Positions 8,431 through 38,473 of a DNA stretch of 38,733 nt are shown here, piece by piece. Below the pieces are notes generated by a model that did no database searches, was not told the DNA's origin, and saw only the letters and a program-made list of their open reading frames with translations. Position 1 is the stretch's first letter. Each line of letters begins with the position of its first letter. The stretch spans positions 1 through 38,733 of the forward strand of contig JAJEPU010000030.1 of NCBI GenBank assembly GCA_020686985.1, given 5' to 3'. A program made the translations under genes and the position numbers. This DNA comes from Brotaphodocola catenula. GTDB taxonomy: Bacteria > Bacillota > Clostridia > Lachnospirales > Lachnospiraceae.

Positions 8431-9500
8431 TCCGGGTAGAAGTGCTGTGCAAACTTCTTGCACGCACTTGCCGCACGCACATCCTGCATCACTTCTACCA
8501 GCGGAATAATCAGGTAATTCTCATTTTTTACTGCCGGAACTTCAGACAGAGCCGGATTGCTCTTTAAGAAATCGAGCTTCTCCTCCACGGTCTGAGTGCC
8601 GTAATCGTTGATGATAATCACATCCGGATTCGTCTCCACAAGAGTCTCCACGCTCGTGTTGAACCAGCGGGAATCTGCCATGTTGCGGGTACAGTTGACT
8701 CCACCTGCAAGTTCAATCAAGTTGCTCTCAAGACCTTTTGAGGTCGTGTAGATCTCATTCCCCTTGAAGGTGTCCAGAACGAAAGCCTTCACCTTTGTAT
8801 CCTCCGGAACGTCCTTAACTGCCGTCTCAACCTCTGCAATCTGATCCTGAATCTCTGTCACGAGTTCCTCTGCCTTGTCCTCAACCTTAAAGATCTTTCC
8901 AAGATTGCGAATATCCGTATATACATCCTCAACCGTCTCATCCTGCACGATCGTTCCCGTGATCGTCAGACAGTTGATGCCCTCATTTTCAAACTGCTCA
9001 TAGCTTCCCCAGGAACCATCTTTAAATGCGCTGATCTGTCCGATCACAAGATCCGTTCCAAGTGCAACTGCATTCTCATTTGATTTCTCGATCTGCGGAA
9101 TCTTCTCAAACTGTGCCTCAAGCTCCAGAAGCGGTTTATCTGCCGCGCTCGTCGATACATTTCTTCCGACAACTCGGTCTCCAAGTCCAAGCATCACCAT
9201 ATTCTCGGCAGCATAAAGGTTTGCACACAGTACCTTCTCCGGCATTTTCGTGAAGGTAACGGTACGCTCTCCATTCTGAATCTCAACTGTGCCATAATCT
9301 GCCGGATCCTGCTGATCCTTGCTCTCCGCCTCGCTCTGATCCGCAGATGCCTCAGATGCTTTGCTCTCCTCTGCCACGGACGATTCTGCTGTGGTCTCCT
9401 GCGCACTTGTCGTATCTGCGTTCTTTGGAGCACATCCGGTTGCTAACGCCATTCCGAGAAAAAGCGCCATTGCCTGTACAACTACCTGTTTCTTTTTCAT
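8418..9500 (-). CDS. btuF: Corrinoid-binding lipoprotein of the ABC transporter (BtuF-like)
   Basis: This 360-residue extracellular lipoprotein captures the ligand for BtuCD. A signal peptide ends in the lipobox LATGC, with the lipidated cysteine at residue 23. An acidic Ser/Ala/Glu linker follows to about residue 66, then a PeripBP/BtuF-like fold with VLCANLYAAENMVMLGLGDR and TNPDVIIIN. It is the first gene of the operon, with GAGGAG upstream of the ATG. The operon leader is a cobalamin riboswitch, so expression should fall when adenosylcobalamin is plentiful. Without the riboswitch the fold would equally fit iron-siderophore or haem binding. Confidence 0.88.
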   Translation of the reverse strand: MKKKQVVVQAMALFLGMALATGCAPKNADTTSAQETTAESSVAEESKASEASADQSEAESKDQQDPADYGTVEIQNGERTVTFTKMPEKVLCANLYAAENMVMLGLGDRVVGRNVSTSAADKPLLELEAQFEKIPQIEKSNENAVALGTDLVIGQISAFKDGSWGSYEQFENEGINCLTITGTIVQDETVEDVYTDIRNLGKIFKVEDKAEELVTEIQDQIAEVETAVKDVPEDTKVKAFVLDTFKGNEIYTTSKGLESNLIELAGGVNCTRNMADSRWFNTSVETLVETNPDVIIINDYGTQTVEEKLDFLKSNPALSEVPAVKNENYLIIPLVEVMQDVRAASACKKFAQHFYPECFE

Positions 9501-9741
9501 GTTTTTCTCCTCTTTTTCTTCTGCATCATGTCCGCACTTCTCTTACGGGAATATGGGAAGCAAACATGAGCGATGATCGTTGAACTGATAAAAAGATAGT
9601 GCTTTGATGCATTTTTCGCTGAAATAAAATCTGAAACAAAAAAATGCCCTCTTTATCGCCTTGACCCTGATTTTCAAAACATCTCAGGTGCAAATGGCGA
9701 CTCTAAGCGCACATCATAGCATGGGGAGAAGAATACTCATC
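9501..9741 (-). other. Untranslated leader between the riboswitch terminator and btuF
   Basis: About 240 nt separate the terminator at 9742-9771 from the btuF start. Apart from the ribosome binding site at its end, no gene, second aptamer or strong hairpin was recognised, although T-rich stretches are present. Confidence 0.5.
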
Positions 9742-9771
9742 AAAAAGACGCTGTTCCTTTCTCCAGCGTCT
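9742..9771 (-). terminator. Intrinsic terminator, expression platform of the cobalamin riboswitch
   Basis: On the minus strand AGACGCTG and CAGCGTCT form a perfect 8-bp stem with a 10-nt loop followed by TTTT. It lies about 40 nt after the aptamer, as expected for ligand-dependent transcription termination before btuF. Confidence 0.85.
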
Positions 9772-9808
9772 CATATCCAACCTTCCCTCCGAAAGCGGAT
9801 AATCCCAC

Positions 9809-10008
9809 ATGACAGCAGGTCTCCTGGCTTGGAATCATCCTCCGTCTTCGTCTTCCCGGCATTTTTTATCTTTCTGCCAGTGACTTTTCTTCAACGTGTG
9901 GTAAAAGACTTCGTCCTCCAGTACAGTAGCGGGGGCTGCGCTGTTTGCCAAATGATTTGGGACAGCTTCCCTGTCAGGCCTTTCGGCACTGTCACGCCTA
10001 TTTGATTT
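9809..10008 (-). promoter_or_regulatory. Cobalamin riboswitch
   Basis: The minus-strand RNA contains the conserved aptamer pieces in order: GTGCCGAAAGGCCTGACAGG near the 5' end, then GGGAAGCTGTCCC, then the B12-box core CAGCGCAGCCCCCGCTACTGT, then CACTGG, and at the 3' end GATTCCAAGCCAGGAGACC. This is the adenosylcobalamin class. It starts within a few nucleotides of the predicted transcription start and precedes btuFCD. It is expected to repress corrinoid uptake when the cofactor is abundant. Confidence 0.95.
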
Positions 10009-10020
10009 CAGTTCATCCGT

Positions 10021-10049
10021 ATTATAAGAGGTTTTTTGTTCTTTGTAAA
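10021..10049 (-). promoter_or_regulatory. Promoter of the cobalamin riboswitch-btuFCD operon
   Basis: TTTACA (10044-10049 on the minus strand), a 17-bp spacer and a perfect TATAAT (10021-10026) put the transcription start near 10014, just before the aptamer. Confidence 0.85.
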
Positions 10050-10054
10050 GGTTT

Positions 10055-10246
10055 TTATTTACTCTGATTTGCTCTGTCTTCCTGATCTCCCGCCTGTGTC
10101 AGGGAGAGCGGACTCGCCCTCCTGTCAAAGATCTTTGCACCCAGTTTCTCCTCGATCTTTGCGAGGAAACTGCAAAACGCCGGTTTGGACACAAGGAGCT
10201 GTTCCGCTGCCTTCGTGATATTTCGGCATTCCGACACAGACTCTAT
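10055..10246 (-). pseudogene. Remnant of a LysR-type regulator helix-turn-helix
   Basis: The frame reads SECRNITKAAEQLLVSKPAF and then IEEKLGAKIFDRRASPLSLT, a typical LysR winged helix-turn-helix. It lacks the first helix (a TAG lies in frame just upstream) and the entire effector domain. The frame ends in an unrelated tail at the btu promoter. Both ends are missing, so this is a decayed fragment, perhaps of a regulator that once stood between yitT and the btu operon. Confidence 0.6.
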
Positions 10247-32971: not shown

Positions 32972-33053
32972 CTTTGTCCACAACACTCCCTTTTATTTTC
33001 TCAACAGATGCGTCACCACAACGAAATATCAAAAAACAGAAAAATATAAAACA

Positions 33054-33086
33054 GAAAAACCGCCATCACGGGACAGCGGTTTTTCT
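33054..33086 (-). terminator. Intrinsic terminator, expression platform of the TPP riboswitch
   Basis: On the minus strand GAAAAACCGC and GCGGTTTTTC form a perfect 10-bp stem with a 12-nt loop and T-rich tail. It lies about 50 nt after the aptamer and about 80 nt before thiX, as expected for control by premature termination. Confidence 0.85.
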
Positions 33087-33260: not shown

Positions 33261-33289
33261 ATTATAGCACATCTTTTTGGCAATGACAA
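33261..33289 (-). promoter_or_regulatory. Promoter of the TPP-regulated operon
   Basis: TTGTCA (33284-33289 on the minus strand), a 17-bp spacer and a perfect TATAAT (33261-33266). It starts just 15 nt after the Hsp70 stop codon, leaving little room for a terminator of the upstream operon. Confidence 0.8.
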
Positions 33290-33304: not shown

Positions 33305-35971
33305 TCATCCCGCCTTGAAGATTGCGCCAGTCGCCTGGATCTCCTTTTCGTTGAGTTCTTCATCATTCCAGATCTTCTCCACCGCCGAAACAAAATCTGT
33401 CCGCTCATCCCCGGCAAGATACGTTTTCACAGCCTGCCATACCGGTTTAACGGTGTACTTATCGTTTTGCAGTGGGTTCTCTCCGTTCCTGCTACAAAGC
33501 TCTGCAATTACCAGCACCGCATAATCCTGTACCAGCTCCCTCTCCTTTGTGCGAAGACCCGCAGATAGATTTTTCACAAATTTTGCAAATTTCTGCTGAT
33601 TTTCTTTCTCGGTTCCTCTTCCGTAACGCTGAATCATCAGATTTGCCACCCATTTGTTCATGTCCGCCATTCTGAAAAAGTGCTCAAAGAAGTTTGCAAT
33701 TTTTGCATCATCCTTTTCATATCGGAGCACAAACTGGAAAATCGCAAGTTTCTGATACTCCGCCTCTCCCGGCATCTTCGTCATATATTCAACATAAAAA
33801 TCAACGAAATTCGGGTCCATAGACGCAATCATTTCGAGCGCATTTCTTAAAACATAACTCGACTGCCTGATTGCGGTTGCATAGGGATTGAAATGCTGTT
33901 TTGCCCTCTGCAAAATCGTTCTTTTCTGCGACTCGCTCCAACCGTCCCTGAGCAAAATTCCGATTGCGTAGACGTAACCCACCATCAAATCGGCCTGATT
34001 GCAGGAATTGATCAGATCCATGCACGGCTCAAAAAAGTCTTCTGGATTGGATGCCTGTCCAATCGCCTCCAAGGCTTTCTTGACCTCTCCGTTAAGTTTA
34101 AATCCAAGTCTCTCATTCTTCTCTGCGAGAAGTTTGAGACCGTTTATCTCACTCTTTGCATTGAGCTTCATCTTGCCAATCGCACTGATTCCCCGTGCAC
34201 TTTTCGCCGTCGTCTTCAAGGATGCCATGTCCATCTCCATGATCGTCTTTGTCTTCGGGCGGTCGGTGATCCATGCCTCCATCGTCATCATTCTCATTGA
34301 ATTGATATAAATCTGGAAACTGATCGGCGTGTTGGCCGGATAAGGATTCTGAAATTTCACAACTCTCGTCGCAATGCGCCGGTTCGGAAGATTCTTTGTC
34401 GTTCCCCTTCCAAGGTAAAGCTCAATTCCAATCGCATCTGTCGTCTTGTCGAGTTTATAGCAATCCCTAATTTCTTCTGATCGATAGGGCAGTTGAGTTC
34501 CGGCAGGAATCAACAGACTGACATACTCATTTCTCAGACCGAGATTGATTGAGTCATTTAAAATCGTTCCGGTGTGGAAAACAGGTGTGTTTGTCTCACG
34601 ATTTTCCTGCATCGGATTTCCAACTAATTCCGCAGTCGCTGTGAGCGTCCGATTTCCATTGTTCTCCGCCCCAATTCTCTGTACATGGTATTTGTGAAGG
34701 CAATAATGATAATAGACAGCTCCTCGCGCAACTGCGAGATCCGGATCACTCGTCGTAAGCGGTTCAAATCCGAAAAATTCTTTCAGTCTCTGGCGAATCA
34801 GATAGCATTTCGTCATTCCGCCGTTTAAAATAACCGCGTCAATCTTCACTCCTTTTCCGGCCTTGTCGAGCACATCGAGAATCGGATAAATGATGTTATT
34901 GACATCGCGCTCATCCATCTTCTGAATTCTTCCGACATCCTCCATCTTATATGCATATCCCATCAAAGGCGCAAGGATGCTCTCCATCTCCGCCTTTGTG
35001 TAGGTCGTCTCAAACGAGTAAGCGTCGTAGAGATTGATGTCCATGACTTCCTCGCTGTAATCATCTGGAAGCTGTACGCCCGACATATCCGCGTCGTCAT
35101 ATGCCATTGAAATCTTCACTTTCAGCTCTTCCGCCAGCTTTCTGAGCTTGCACATCACTTCTTCCCTGCGTTTGGTCGGAACGACAATCTCATACATTTC
35201 CTGAAATCTCTTGAGCATATCCTCCGCGAGAAGCTCATCAAAATTGTCTCCGCCGAGAAGCGTGTAACGGCTGATCGCAAGATCTCGAATGTCGATCAAG
35301 CCCTCCGGGGTACTGCTGACTCTGTGAAGCGTCACATCGAGAGTTCCTCCGCCGAGATCAAAGACCATGACATTTTTCTCTGTCTCAAGGGAGAGCAAAT
35401 CCGACGGAATCTCGCCATCTTCCTGCATCCGCATGAAATCATAGATGACTGCCTTCGGCTCATACAGCAGAATTTCATGCATATTTTCGACATTGATTCC
35501 TGCTTTTCTCGCCGCATCGATCGTCGCCTGACACTGATCGGAATCAAACGATGCCGGAACGGTGATCACGACATCGCGGATTTCTTCCTGAAACAGTCGC
35601 TTTTTTGCGACATTGATCATGTAAGAGAGAATCCGGGCGGACACATCTGCCGGGATCTTGTCCGGGATCTCATCCGCAAGATTGACCTGATCACTGACTC
35701 CCATCAGCGACTTCACAGACTTGCACACATATCCGGCTCTCGTCCCGTATCGACTCTTCGCATAATCGCCGACATCGGTGACAATCTTGCCTTCCTGATT
35801 CTTATAATAAAAGACAACAGAAGGGAGCAGAGGTGCCCTCGACGTGCTTCCCGTATCATTTTTTCTCTCCAGATTCAGGACAACCGGCTTCATTTTATCC
35901 CGAACAATATTGGCATATGCGATCACGGAGTTTGTCGTTCCGAGATCAATCGCTGTGTACATTTCTGACAT
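33305..35971 (-). CDS. Large divergent Hsp70-family protein
   Basis: This 888-residue cytoplasmic protein has a complete actin-like ATPase domain: phosphate-1 motif AIDLGTTNSV (7-16), VVITVPASFDSDQ (134-146), LYEPKAVIYDF (169-179), phosphate-2 motif VFDLGGGTLDV (203-213), and adenosine motif VILNGGMTKCYLIRQRL (380-396) with DPDLAVARGAVYY. It is much longer than DnaK (about 610-640). The substrate-binding part is barely recognisable, and about 270 residues of helical C-terminus follow, lacking the DnaK EEVD-like tail. Its ATG follows the stop of the MBL-GrpE-like gene directly (TAAATG), with AGGAGG 8 nt upstream, so the two are co-translated. The clients are unknown. Confidence 0.92.
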   Translation of the reverse strand: MSEMYTAIDLGTTNSVIAYANIVRDKMKPVVLNLERKNDTGSTSRAPLLPSVVFYYKNQEGKIVTDVGDYAKSRYGTRAGYVCKSVKSLMGVSDQVNLADEIPDKIPADVSARILSYMINVAKKRLFQEEIRDVVITVPASFDSDQCQATIDAARKAGINVENMHEILLYEPKAVIYDFMRMQEDGEIPSDLLSLETEKNVMVFDLGGGTLDVTLHRVSSTPEGLIDIRDLAISRYTLLGGDNFDELLAEDMLKRFQEMYEIVVPTKRREEVMCKLRKLAEELKVKISMAYDDADMSGVQLPDDYSEEVMDINLYDAYSFETTYTKAEMESILAPLMGYAYKMEDVGRIQKMDERDVNNIIYPILDVLDKAGKGVKIDAVILNGGMTKCYLIRQRLKEFFGFEPLTTSDPDLAVARGAVYYHYCLHKYHVQRIGAENNGNRTLTATAELVGNPMQENRETNTPVFHTGTILNDSINLGLRNEYVSLLIPAGTQLPYRSEEIRDCYKLDKTTDAIGIELYLGRGTTKNLPNRRIATRVVKFQNPYPANTPISFQIYINSMRMMTMEAWITDRPKTKTIMEMDMASLKTTAKSARGISAIGKMKLNAKSEINGLKLLAEKNERLGFKLNGEVKKALEAIGQASNPEDFFEPCMDLINSCNQADLMVGYVYAIGILLRDGWSESQKRTILQRAKQHFNPYATAIRQSSYVLRNALEMIASMDPNFVDFYVEYMTKMPGEAEYQKLAIFQFVLRYEKDDAKIANFFEHFFRMADMNKWVANLMIQRYGRGTEKENQQKFAKFVKNLSAGLRTKERELVQDYAVLVIAELCSRNGENPLQNDKYTVKPVWQAVKTYLAGDERTDFVSAVEKIWNDEELNEKEIQATGAIFKAG

Positions 35972-38323
35972 TTACTCCACCTCCTCTTCCTTCTCCCTCA
36001 CCGTCGGCAGGGAAATCACCGTAGATCCAAACTTCCATCCCGGATGTTCCACCACAACCGTCTTCTTCTGATTCAGCTCCGTGTAAGACTCTCCAATATA
36101 GGTGTATTCCGCAAGTCCCTCGACTTCCGTCTCAAACTCTCGTCCTGTGCAGTCAATCGGCGTCACTCCGCAGTCCTTGATGAACCGAAGCATCTGCTTA
36201 AACACGATCGTGAGCGGGAGAAGCTGGGGCGGAGTCTTTACCTTCTGCTCCTTGAGCGTCGTGAGTCTCTTCTCAACCATCTCCATACTATCTAAGAGAT
36301 GACCATATTTTTCAGAATTCATCATCGAATAGAACGAGGCGATCGCCGTATTCTTTGCATCCTCTGTCGCCTCATCAATCGTCTCATTCAACTCATCAAA
36401 CATTGCCTGCACAAGCTCGAGAGAATTCTTGTAATTGTCCTTCATAAAGCGAAGCTGTTCAAGTTCATTCCCCGACTGGTATTCGGCAACCGCCTCAGAG
36501 GACTCAGTCAGCACACGCTCCGTCTGCCTGAGAACATCCCTCGCACTCTTTTTTTGTCTCTTCATTCCATACTGCTCAAACAACGCACCACGAATGTTGC
36601 GAAGAAGACGATCGCAGTATCTCGACCGAAATGTATATAAGATCGGACTGTATGTTTCATTTTTCAGATCCGGATCAATCATAACCAGGAAAATCACCAT
36701 GTATTTTCCAAGGAAAAAGATTTTGTGATTTTTTCTGTCTCTCCGTTCCAGATTTTCCGTAAATTCTGCATACTTCTGCATCGCTTCGCGATCTCCGTCT
36801 AAAGCCTGCTTAAGCCAAGAGATTCCCTGTTCCACAATTCCAAGAATATATTTACGTCTTTCTTCCTGATCCAGATTGACACTTTCGAGTGCTTCCATAT
36901 ATGTCTCATACGAAACCCTGTTTTCTTTCAAAACCTCCTGACTCATCCGGTAGGCATCTCTCGGATGGCAGTTTGGATAACGAAGACTTCCATAGACTGC
37001 GACCCATTCACCCATCAGCTTTGCGCGGATCGTTGCTGTGGAAGGGTCCTCCTGCAATTCCTGTGCCTTTGAAAGTTCTTTCTGCATCACATCCTGAAAT
37101 ATCTGATCATATTTCATAGCTTTCTCCCTCTTTATATAATATTTAAACCCATTCTTTGTCTGAGTCACAGAGAGATTCGGATGATTTTCTTTCATGACAT
37201 CCCCCAGCGACTTTTTCCGAAACCTCGGATACACATGAAGCAAATAGATCTGCTCGACTCCCAGATTTTCTGCAAACTGATATATTTCTGCCGGTCCTGC
37301 ATGCAAACTGTACAGATCAAATAAAACCGAGACACAGCCCTCTCTTGCGGAGTCCTGACCGACAACGATGTATCCGCCCTGATTTTCTGGAATTTCCTGA
37401 TCGGACTGGATATGATTCCCATAAACAAAATAGCCCATGTCTGCAAGCGTATCCGCAATCTTCCTGCTCTTTGGCTCTAAAAATACGGGCGTATCCGGAA
37501 ATACCTCGTTCAAGAAATACAAGAGATCGAGATGTTTGGGAATGCTCTTTGAAATCAGGTAGACCCTTTTATTCTGAGCTAAGTTTCTCTTGATAATGGG
37601 CTCCAGTCCACTTTGCTCTGCGCCCTCTGTAAACCCAGCCCCCTCACGCTGTGCACTTTGCACGAGTATGAGCTCTTTCTGCCACTCATCGGCATCAAGA
37701 TATGTATTTGGGGCATTTAAGAGAAGGACTTTCGGGAAAATCCCACCTGGAATCCTCATTCCGTTGAGTCCGAACCTCGTCTTGACACTGAAATCTCCGG
37801 AGTAGAGAATCCGGTGACTGCCTGTCTCTAAATAAATCATCACCGCACCGATCATATGTCCTGCCGGCAAAAGAGTAATCTTGCACCCCTTCATCTGAAA
37901 TGTCTTCATGACCGGTCTGACCTGAATCCGCGACAACAGTGTTTGTGCCTGACGATACCGTTCATTCTTTACCCGCTCGGACTCCTCTCTCCCCGAAATT
38001 CTTCCAAACTCCAGAAGTTGCACCTCGATCAGACGTTTCGTGTCCTGAGTCGCCAGAATCTCCGCATGTGGCGCCAGTGTGGCAATCTTAGCAAAAGAAC
38101 CGATATGGTCATAATGAGCATGGCTGATCAAGATGAGATCCAGATCGGAGTAATCCGATACTTCCTGCAAAAGACGCTCATAATCCGGATAGAGTTCCTC
38201 GATATCGGGGCGTTGCAGGCGTGCCCCACAGTCAAGCAAAATCCGAATTCCATCTATAAAAAGAAAATAGGCAGACGCTCCCACCTCATCTCCGCCTCCG
38301 AGCGGAATCAAATAATCACTCAT
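35972..38323 (-). CDS. MBL-fold (beta-CASP-like) hydrolase fused to a GrpE-like C-terminal domain
   Basis: The 783-residue protein begins with a metallo-beta-lactamase domain (about 1-400). Metal ligands are intact: HAHYDH at 68-73, H156 in LLPAGHMIG, D177 in YSGDFS, and H341 in SLHAG, with H363 in LLHVYP. The layout follows RNA-processing beta-CASP enzymes, but their E-S/T-T motif reads NAPNTY and SxHAD reads SLHAG. Residues about 404-610 are helical and unidentified. A coiled coil (about 610-700) leads to an end domain (708-783: CGVTPIDCTGREF, VVVEHPGWKFGSTVISLPTV) that follows the GrpE beta-domain pattern. The next gene is an Hsp70. The ATG at 38323 is chosen because the fold starts there; in-frame TTG 38362 and ATG 38341 are alternatives. 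Confidence 0.8.
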   Translation of the reverse strand: MSDYLIPLGGGDEVGASAYFLFIDGIRILLDCGARLQRPDIEELYPDYERLLQEVSDYSDLDLILISHAHYDHIGSFAKIATLAPHAEILATQDTKRLIEVQLLEFGRISGREESERVKNERYRQAQTLLSRIQVRPVMKTFQMKGCKITLLPAGHMIGAVMIYLETGSHRILYSGDFSVKTRFGLNGMRIPGGIFPKVLLLNAPNTYLDADEWQKELILVQSAQREGAGFTEGAEQSGLEPIIKRNLAQNKRVYLISKSIPKHLDLLYFLNEVFPDTPVFLEPKSRKIADTLADMGYFVYGNHIQSDQEIPENQGGYIVVGQDSAREGCVSVLFDLYSLHAGPAEIYQFAENLGVEQIYLLHVYPRFRKKSLGDVMKENHPNLSVTQTKNGFKYYIKREKAMKYDQIFQDVMQKELSKAQELQEDPSTATIRAKLMGEWVAVYGSLRYPNCHPRDAYRMSQEVLKENRVSYETYMEALESVNLDQEERRKYILGIVEQGISWLKQALDGDREAMQKYAEFTENLERRDRKNHKIFFLGKYMVIFLVMIDPDLKNETYSPILYTFRSRYCDRLLRNIRGALFEQYGMKRQKKSARDVLRQTERVLTESSEAVAEYQSGNELEQLRFMKDNYKNSLELVQAMFDELNETIDEATEDAKNTAIASFYSMMNSEKYGHLLDSMEMVEKRLTTLKEQKVKTPPQLLPLTIVFKQMLRFIKDCGVTPIDCTGREFETEVEGLAEYTYIGESYTELNQKKTVVVEHPGWKFGSTVISLPTVREKEEEVE

Positions 38324-38444: not shown

Positions 38445-38473
38445 ATTATACACAATCCTGAAGTTTTTGTAAC
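38445..38473 (-). promoter_or_regulatory. Promoter of the MBL-GrpE/Hsp70 operon
   Basis: GTTACA (38468-38473 on the minus strand), a 17-bp spacer and a perfect TATAAT (38445-38450). The start would be near 38438, giving a leader of about 115 nt. Confidence 0.7.

Follow-up and report, generated by a model that had tools for sequence, protein, structure and literature searches.

The usual picture of an Hsp70 system is that of a general machine with a shared exchange factor, and ordinary GrpE is a protein of about 200 aa without further domains. Beta-CASP ribonucleases, with which the locus reported here shares a metallo-beta-lactamase (MBL) core and ligands, include RNase J, TTHA0252, CPSF73/Integrator 11, aCPSF1/FttA, and Cas14. 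Two conflict-type systems come closest otherwise. In the part of the source used here, type III CoCoNuT systems are described as having CnuD, an Hsp70-like protein followed by a HEAT-like helical part and tied to an RNA-targeting nuclease, with an Hsp70-like ATPase that is probably near-inactive (PMC11090510). GAP1-N2 GTPase-centred conflict systems of Firmicutes and Actinobacteria include HSP70 and GrpE, again in the portion of the source consulted (PMC7159879). The word GrpE does not occur in the CoCoNuT paper (PMC11090510), nor do the terms MBL and metallo-beta-lactamase occur in the main text of the GAP1-N2 paper (PMC7159879).

We analysed a 38,733-nucleotide stretch of Brotaphodocola catenula (the window) containing a beta-CASP-type MBL, a GrpE-like protein, and an Hsp70, a set referred to below as the trio. 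As in canonical DnaK–GrpE(–DnaJ), the Hsp70 has an ATPase and a substrate-binding beta-domain, and a partner of GrpE fold is encoded next to it. The trio differs from that system in having a nuclease-type gene first, no J-protein, valine or isoleucine at the place of DnaK Arg167, an Hsp70 helical C-terminus of about 280 aa, an extra helical domain of about 180 aa in the GrpE-like protein, and no CIRCE box (0/55 upstream regions). With type III CoCoNuT it shares an Hsp70-like protein with a helical part and a link to a nuclease; however, the catalytic positions of the trio ATPase are invariant whereas that of CoCoNuT is degenerate, and the nuclease type is beta-CASP rather than HEPN with McrB/McrC partners, as far as the part of PMC11090510 used here describes them. 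No McrB-type GTPase or McrC was recognised by eye among up to two neighbours per side in 38 of 67 loci. An Hsp70 gene and a GrpE gene outside the dnaK operon are common to the trio and, in the portion of PMC7159879 consulted, the GAP1-N2 systems, but reading the trio's neighbours by eye revealed no GTPase of that type. Unlike the beta-CASP ribonucleases above, the trio MBL is short (~385 aa) and tied to an Hsp70 system, either within an operon or as a fusion. We found no description of the trio or of the fusion in the full-text literature searched, which left preprints and most subscription journals outside its scope.

Organization of the locus

All operon features lie on the (−) strand. A fused gene of 783 aa, starting with the ATG at 38323, precedes the gene of an 888-aa Hsp70 (33305..35971), and the two abut as TAAATG, as the initial annotation had read them. 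The fused protein consists of a beta-CASP-type MBL half (residues 1–402; 37118..38323; Pfam Lactamase_B/Lactamase_B_6) and a GrpE-like half of 381 aa (35975..37117). A sigma-70-like site at 38445..38473 (−), about 120 bases upstream of the operon, was found by consensus scan only, and promoter-like sites in the window were no more frequent than in shuffled sequences. The same type of scan placed a terminator-like hairpin of 15 pairs after the Hsp70 gene (33053..33086, −). The genome also has a complete hrcA-grpE-dnaK-dnaJ operon, so the trio is not the cell's sole such system.

Several further signals were recorded in the window. A strong promoter-like site (33261–33289, −; 11/12, with TG before the second hexamer) lies just past the Hsp70 gene, and the 15-pair hairpin follows about 175 bases beyond it; the two could form the leader of the next operon, which by eye is ABC-transporter-like, and no Rfam family matched. 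Rfam returned for the window one cobalamin riboswitch (9797–10008, −; 86 bits) and two tRNAs only, all far from the gene pair. The right end of the window, presumably resembling the 3' end of 23S rRNA, was unmatched by Rfam and is followed by a 20-pair hairpin in the scan.

Conservation of a three-gene unit

Scanning named genomes with the GrpE-like family yielded 65 loci, or 66 distinct loci with the window; the rows number 67 because L029 and L055 are one contig. The MBL, GrpE-like, and Hsp70 proteins were all present, in that order and on one strand, in 59 of the 66, and the remaining seven lay at contig ends. Adjacency of the Hsp70 in homologues thus held in 59/59 complete distinct loci, a count that covers loci containing the GrpE-like protein, with which the survey was seeded. 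The GrpE-like protein was encoded by its own gene in 54 of the complete loci (the separate-gene trio was also seen in G105, G016, and G170) and fused to the MBL in five. The two-gene system that had been proposed is therefore correct for the window, but the basic unit is one of three genes. The MBL and GrpE-like genes were separated by at most 60 bases, or overlapped, in 42 of 55 separate-gene rows, and pairwise distances of the three proteins correlated with r 0.96–0.98 over 33 loci (raw values, shared ancestry included). The large alignments omitted L065, the truncated L070, L076, L089, L090, and L094, and the copies L033 and L055, and dropping near-copies (>80%) reduced 58 loci to 38. The unit is an Hsp70 system of three genes that is conserved yet accessory.

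Two loci counted as complete depart from the common arrangement of the GrpE-like gene. In L079 (1179–3164) two GrpE-like frames stand in tandem between MBL and Hsp70, and L065 (7361–8435) has a trio that is complete except that this gene is split into two frames, which overlap.

Among the 524 neighbour frames in the loci, nine of which were scanned with Pfam, no conserved fourth gene was seen; clusters with Lachnospiraceae loci were either generic (ABC-ATPase-like and sensor-like, named by eye, seven loci each) or limited to near relatives such as L063, L074, and L095. Surroundings recurred in Selenomonad loci and mostly did not in Lachnospiraceae loci; one cluster, of 17 loci that are Selenomonad as far as listed, is headed by a gene that looks TatC-like by eye. 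In L049 (Lachnospiraceae SIG304), a 776-aa frame with a PIN nuclease domain (Pfam PIN_4) and an Hsp70 (446–2776) lies 27 bp upstream of the trio, and another Hsp70 of 495 aa (8753–10240) lies downstream; judged by its predicted domains, the PIN-domain-plus-Hsp70 protein is a second nuclease–Hsp70 coupling.

Origin of the fusion

The fused loci were the window, Cand. Fusicatenibacter intestinigallinarum (L031), a Lachnospiraceae MAG (L032), a Blautia MAG (L035), and Hominifimenecus microfluidus (L036). These five formed one clade in the GrpE-like tree (SH-aLRT 96, quick tree), and the three with a complete Hsp70 formed one clade in the Hsp70 tree (support 96/96); the sisters of the fused clade were the separate-gene G105 and L034. 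The fusion is a derived state with a single origin. The covalent tie between exchange factor and hydrolase proposed at the outset is thus real, but it occurs in 5/59 complete loci, and what is conserved is the set of three genes. We rejected an assembly error since five lineages join at the same point and form one clade. As the fusion shows, cells tolerate an exchange factor joined to the nuclease.

At the former gene boundary an internal in-frame ATG (37115..37117, −) was found in the same place in 5/5 fused genes, with GGGAG (four genes) or AGGAGG (one) shortly ahead; in the window the element is AGGGAG at 37129–37124 (−). The arginine codon before the ATG was AGG in all five, against a usage of 17%, which hints at a retained ribosome-binding site, the five being of one origin and not independent. 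The internal ATG may act as a second start giving free GrpE-like protein from the fused gene. This stays a suggestion because a strict Shine–Dalgarno scan (at least 5 bases, 3–12 nt away) passed L036 alone at the join, and passed seven of the 123 in-frame ATGs of the fused genes.

The GrpE-like protein

In the AlphaFold2 model, residues 1–183 of the GrpE-like half form an N-terminal helical domain (36569..37117, −) that matched no Pfam family. The GrpE core follows (35975..36550, −), comprising long helices, a helical bundle, and a C-terminal beta-domain, and was recognised by Pfam, the model, Foldseek, and a profile match. Separate-gene relatives were mostly 354–397 aa and carried the same kind of N-terminal extension (~180 aa), and the protein is thus neither of about 200 aa nor free of further domains.

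The proposal of a GrpE-like C-terminal domain was upheld, although the similarity is weak in most family members. Pfam GrpE scored 26.1 bits against a curated cut-off of 25.8 (28.6 bits in the genome search) and reached E ≤ 0.01 in 8/40 family members only. The model has the GrpE topology, a helical core and then a C-terminal beta-domain, and the highest Foldseek probabilities went to GrpE structures, with no E ≤ 0.001 and with two NrdB chains first when ranked by E-value. The profile of the family matched that of canonical GrpE colinearly (canonical alignment from 28 of 30 loci, L122 and L127 left out). Single-sequence hhalign missed the similarity, searching solved structures with a profile built from the GrpE-like alignment returned no GrpE, and NCBIfam gave no GrpE match. 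The C-terminal G-W-x-[YF] and I-x-x-P of the family align with the canonical GrpE end G-Y ... R-P-x-M-V; G360, W361, and P371 were present in 40/40 sequences, and this C-terminal part is among the best conserved stretches. A chance coiled-coil match was rejected because the similarity includes the beta-domain, the top Foldseek probabilities belong to GrpE, and the profile match is colinear.

The Hsp70

Pfam HSP70 was found in 35/35 aligned sequences. The predicted model of the window Hsp70 (pLDDT 82) aligned with DnaK 5nro over 472 residues (rmsd 3.6), up to residue 585, covering the ATPase and the substrate-binding beta-domain. The nucleotide-binding domain spans residues 1–430 (34682..35971, −) and the substrate-binding beta-domain residues 474–585 (34217..34552, −), with modelled strands at 474–580. 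Residues 605–886 (33314..34159, −) form 16 helices in the model, in place of the short DnaK lid. Identical ATPase residues in 35/35 sequences and this helical stretch bear out the reading of an Hsp70 with a full ATPase and a divergent C-terminus. The place of DnaK Arg167, the J-domain-docking arginine, was V or I in 35/35 Hsp70s; the equivalence was set by counting from E171, and the sequences differ in length close by. The absence of an adjacent J-protein gene also held beyond the window: a single J-domain frame turned up in all the scanned loci taken together, a DnaJ-type frame in L041 (315–1310) that lies 320 bp upstream of its trio.

The GrpE-like core might keep its fold while serving as a structural scaffold or dimeriser instead of an exchange factor, as the weak sequence similarity and the large extra domain could suggest. 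An Hsp70 nevertheless adjoins it in every complete locus, with ATPase residues intact wherever aligned, and its C-terminal part, including the three invariant residues, aligns with the canonical GrpE end; we regard the scaffold role as very unlikely.

The beta-CASP-type metallo-beta-lactamase

Pfam, NCBIfam, and a sequence search of solved structures assigned the MBL half to the beta-CASP metallo-beta-lactamases. NCBIfam scored aCPSF1 at 74 bits and Cas14 at 65 bits, both under the equivalog cut-offs, and the closest solved sequences were Integrator 11, CPSF73, archaeal aCPSF1, and Cas14. Eight ligand and motif positions (HxHxDH, a later His and Asp, and the C-terminal His motifs) were identical in 38/38 aligned sequences, in agreement with the intact metal ligands and beta-CASP-like character first noted. 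RMMBL, the RNA-specificity domain, was detected in 21/38 MBL sequences and not in 17/38 at E ≤ 0.001, and one family member matched the DNA-repair model DRMBL (Pfam); as a sign of RNA nuclease activity, RMMBL is only suggestive.

Such a gene set might be explained without any part of the chaperone in cutting: the Hsp70 and GrpE-like protein would be a private folding or storage system that keeps a harmful nuclease inactive or helps it to load metals. The fixed gene order, the tight spacing, and the correlated distances suit a client–chaperone set equally well, and a general DnaK system is already present in the host. Against this stand the ordinary beta-CASP genes of the relatives G024, G051, and G171, where the stretch inspected contains neither a GrpE-like gene nor an Hsp70 gene; the enzyme kind thus needs no such partners in general. 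G024 and G051 were among six matches from a search of the window's family, in which G069 matched the MBL part only. Fusing the exchange factor to a mere client would also be an odd solution. We consider a private folding system rather unlikely.

Distribution and genomic context

The trio was present in 3/150 sampled genomes of the window's family and 2/24 of its genus. The GrpE-like protein occurred in 2/391 genomes of the class, both with the trio (G531 is among the trio carriers of the class), in 1/299 of the phylum, this being the window's own, and in 10/101 of the family of a Selenomonad carrier, where the other two genes were not looked for. Judged by record titles, carriers were mostly Lachnospiraceae and Selenomonadaceae/Selenomonadales, with further Ruminococcus, Eubacterium, Butyricicoccus, and Clostridium entries and single carriers in Synergistaceae, Riflebacteria (truncated), and Phascolarctobacterium; they include some gut and rumen bacteria. 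The two carriers in the genus have trios that fall far apart, on opposing sides of both the Hsp70 tree and the GrpE-like tree, so the trio has been transferred or often lost. Canonical GrpE was also found in five of six tested carriers, and the sixth (the genome of L092) gave none.

A profile of 40 GrpE-like sequences gave no confirmed match in viral contigs, and the window GrpE-like protein gave none at E ≤ 0.001 among phages and plasmids, a search that could miss distant copies; on these results we rejected phage or plasmid cargo. Control by HrcA/CIRCE was likewise rejected: the 55 upstream regions without a box came from 60 rows with all three genes (the other five were too short), and a perfect box at the host hrcA operon served as positive control.

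Very large proteins are encoded immediately before the trio, and on its strand, in L029 (1946–6328; a 1460-aa kinase-AAA-TPR protein by Pfam) and L056 (2341–6612; 1423 aa, resembling the former by eye), and DNA-methylase-like and HNH-like genes (by eye) lie downstream in L044. Together with the patchy spread, such neighbours would fit an anti-phage or other conflict system: on detecting a sign of phage or of damage, the Hsp70 and its exchange factor would set the nuclease free. The parts of the two sources cited above lend this some precedent, with Hsp70 and GrpE in GAP1-N2 GTPase conflict systems (PMC7159879) and Hsp70-like proteins in RNA-targeting CoCoNuT systems (PMC11090510). However, PADLOC gave no close match to the window proteins (best E 0.013 and 0.0057), Lachnospiraceae loci have no widely shared neighbour family except generic ones, the chromosomal place beside the TatC-like gene recurs, and viral contigs, phages, and plasmids gave no match in the searches just described. 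A defence role appears quite unlikely to us.

Proposed function

The likeliest function, to which we give an even chance, is a machine for chaperone-coupled RNA cutting, with the nuclease substrate presented or released through the Hsp70 cycle. Its parts would be a beta-CASP MBL nuclease, a GrpE-like exchange factor extended by a helical domain, and a large Hsp70 that hydrolyses ATP and has a long helical arm replacing the lid. The GrpE-like core would dock on the ATPase domain of the trio Hsp70 and drive ADP release, and its helical domain, or the peptide bond in the fusion, would keep the nuclease beside the chaperone. With its binding groove and helical arm the Hsp70 would grip a substrate, probably either an RNA-bound misfolded protein or a ribonucleoprotein, and would offer the RNA to the nuclease, which would couple cutting to the chaperone cycle. 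In one Lachnospiraceae clade the fusion would make the link permanent, the internal start perhaps still yielding some free exchange factor. We favour the machine because the exchange factor occurs with the Hsp70 and the nuclease in every complete locus, the active-site residues are intact where aligned, and the fusion is tolerated; folding or storage of the nuclease would account for the gene set as such equally well. More tentatively, the trio may represent a new class of bacterial RNA-decay or RNP-remodelling machine, in which an Hsp70 with its own exchange factor, working without a J-protein, would drive a beta-CASP RNase and select its substrates.

The trio Hsp70 appears dedicated to a nuclease; it retains its ATPase, seemingly without the J-protein docking arginine, and bears a large new arm. 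The divergent GrpE clade offers a way to ask what is essential in an exchange factor, and the natural fusion singles out two of the parts as the first to study. Should the parts work jointly, a protein-folding cycle would be linked directly to nucleic-acid cutting.
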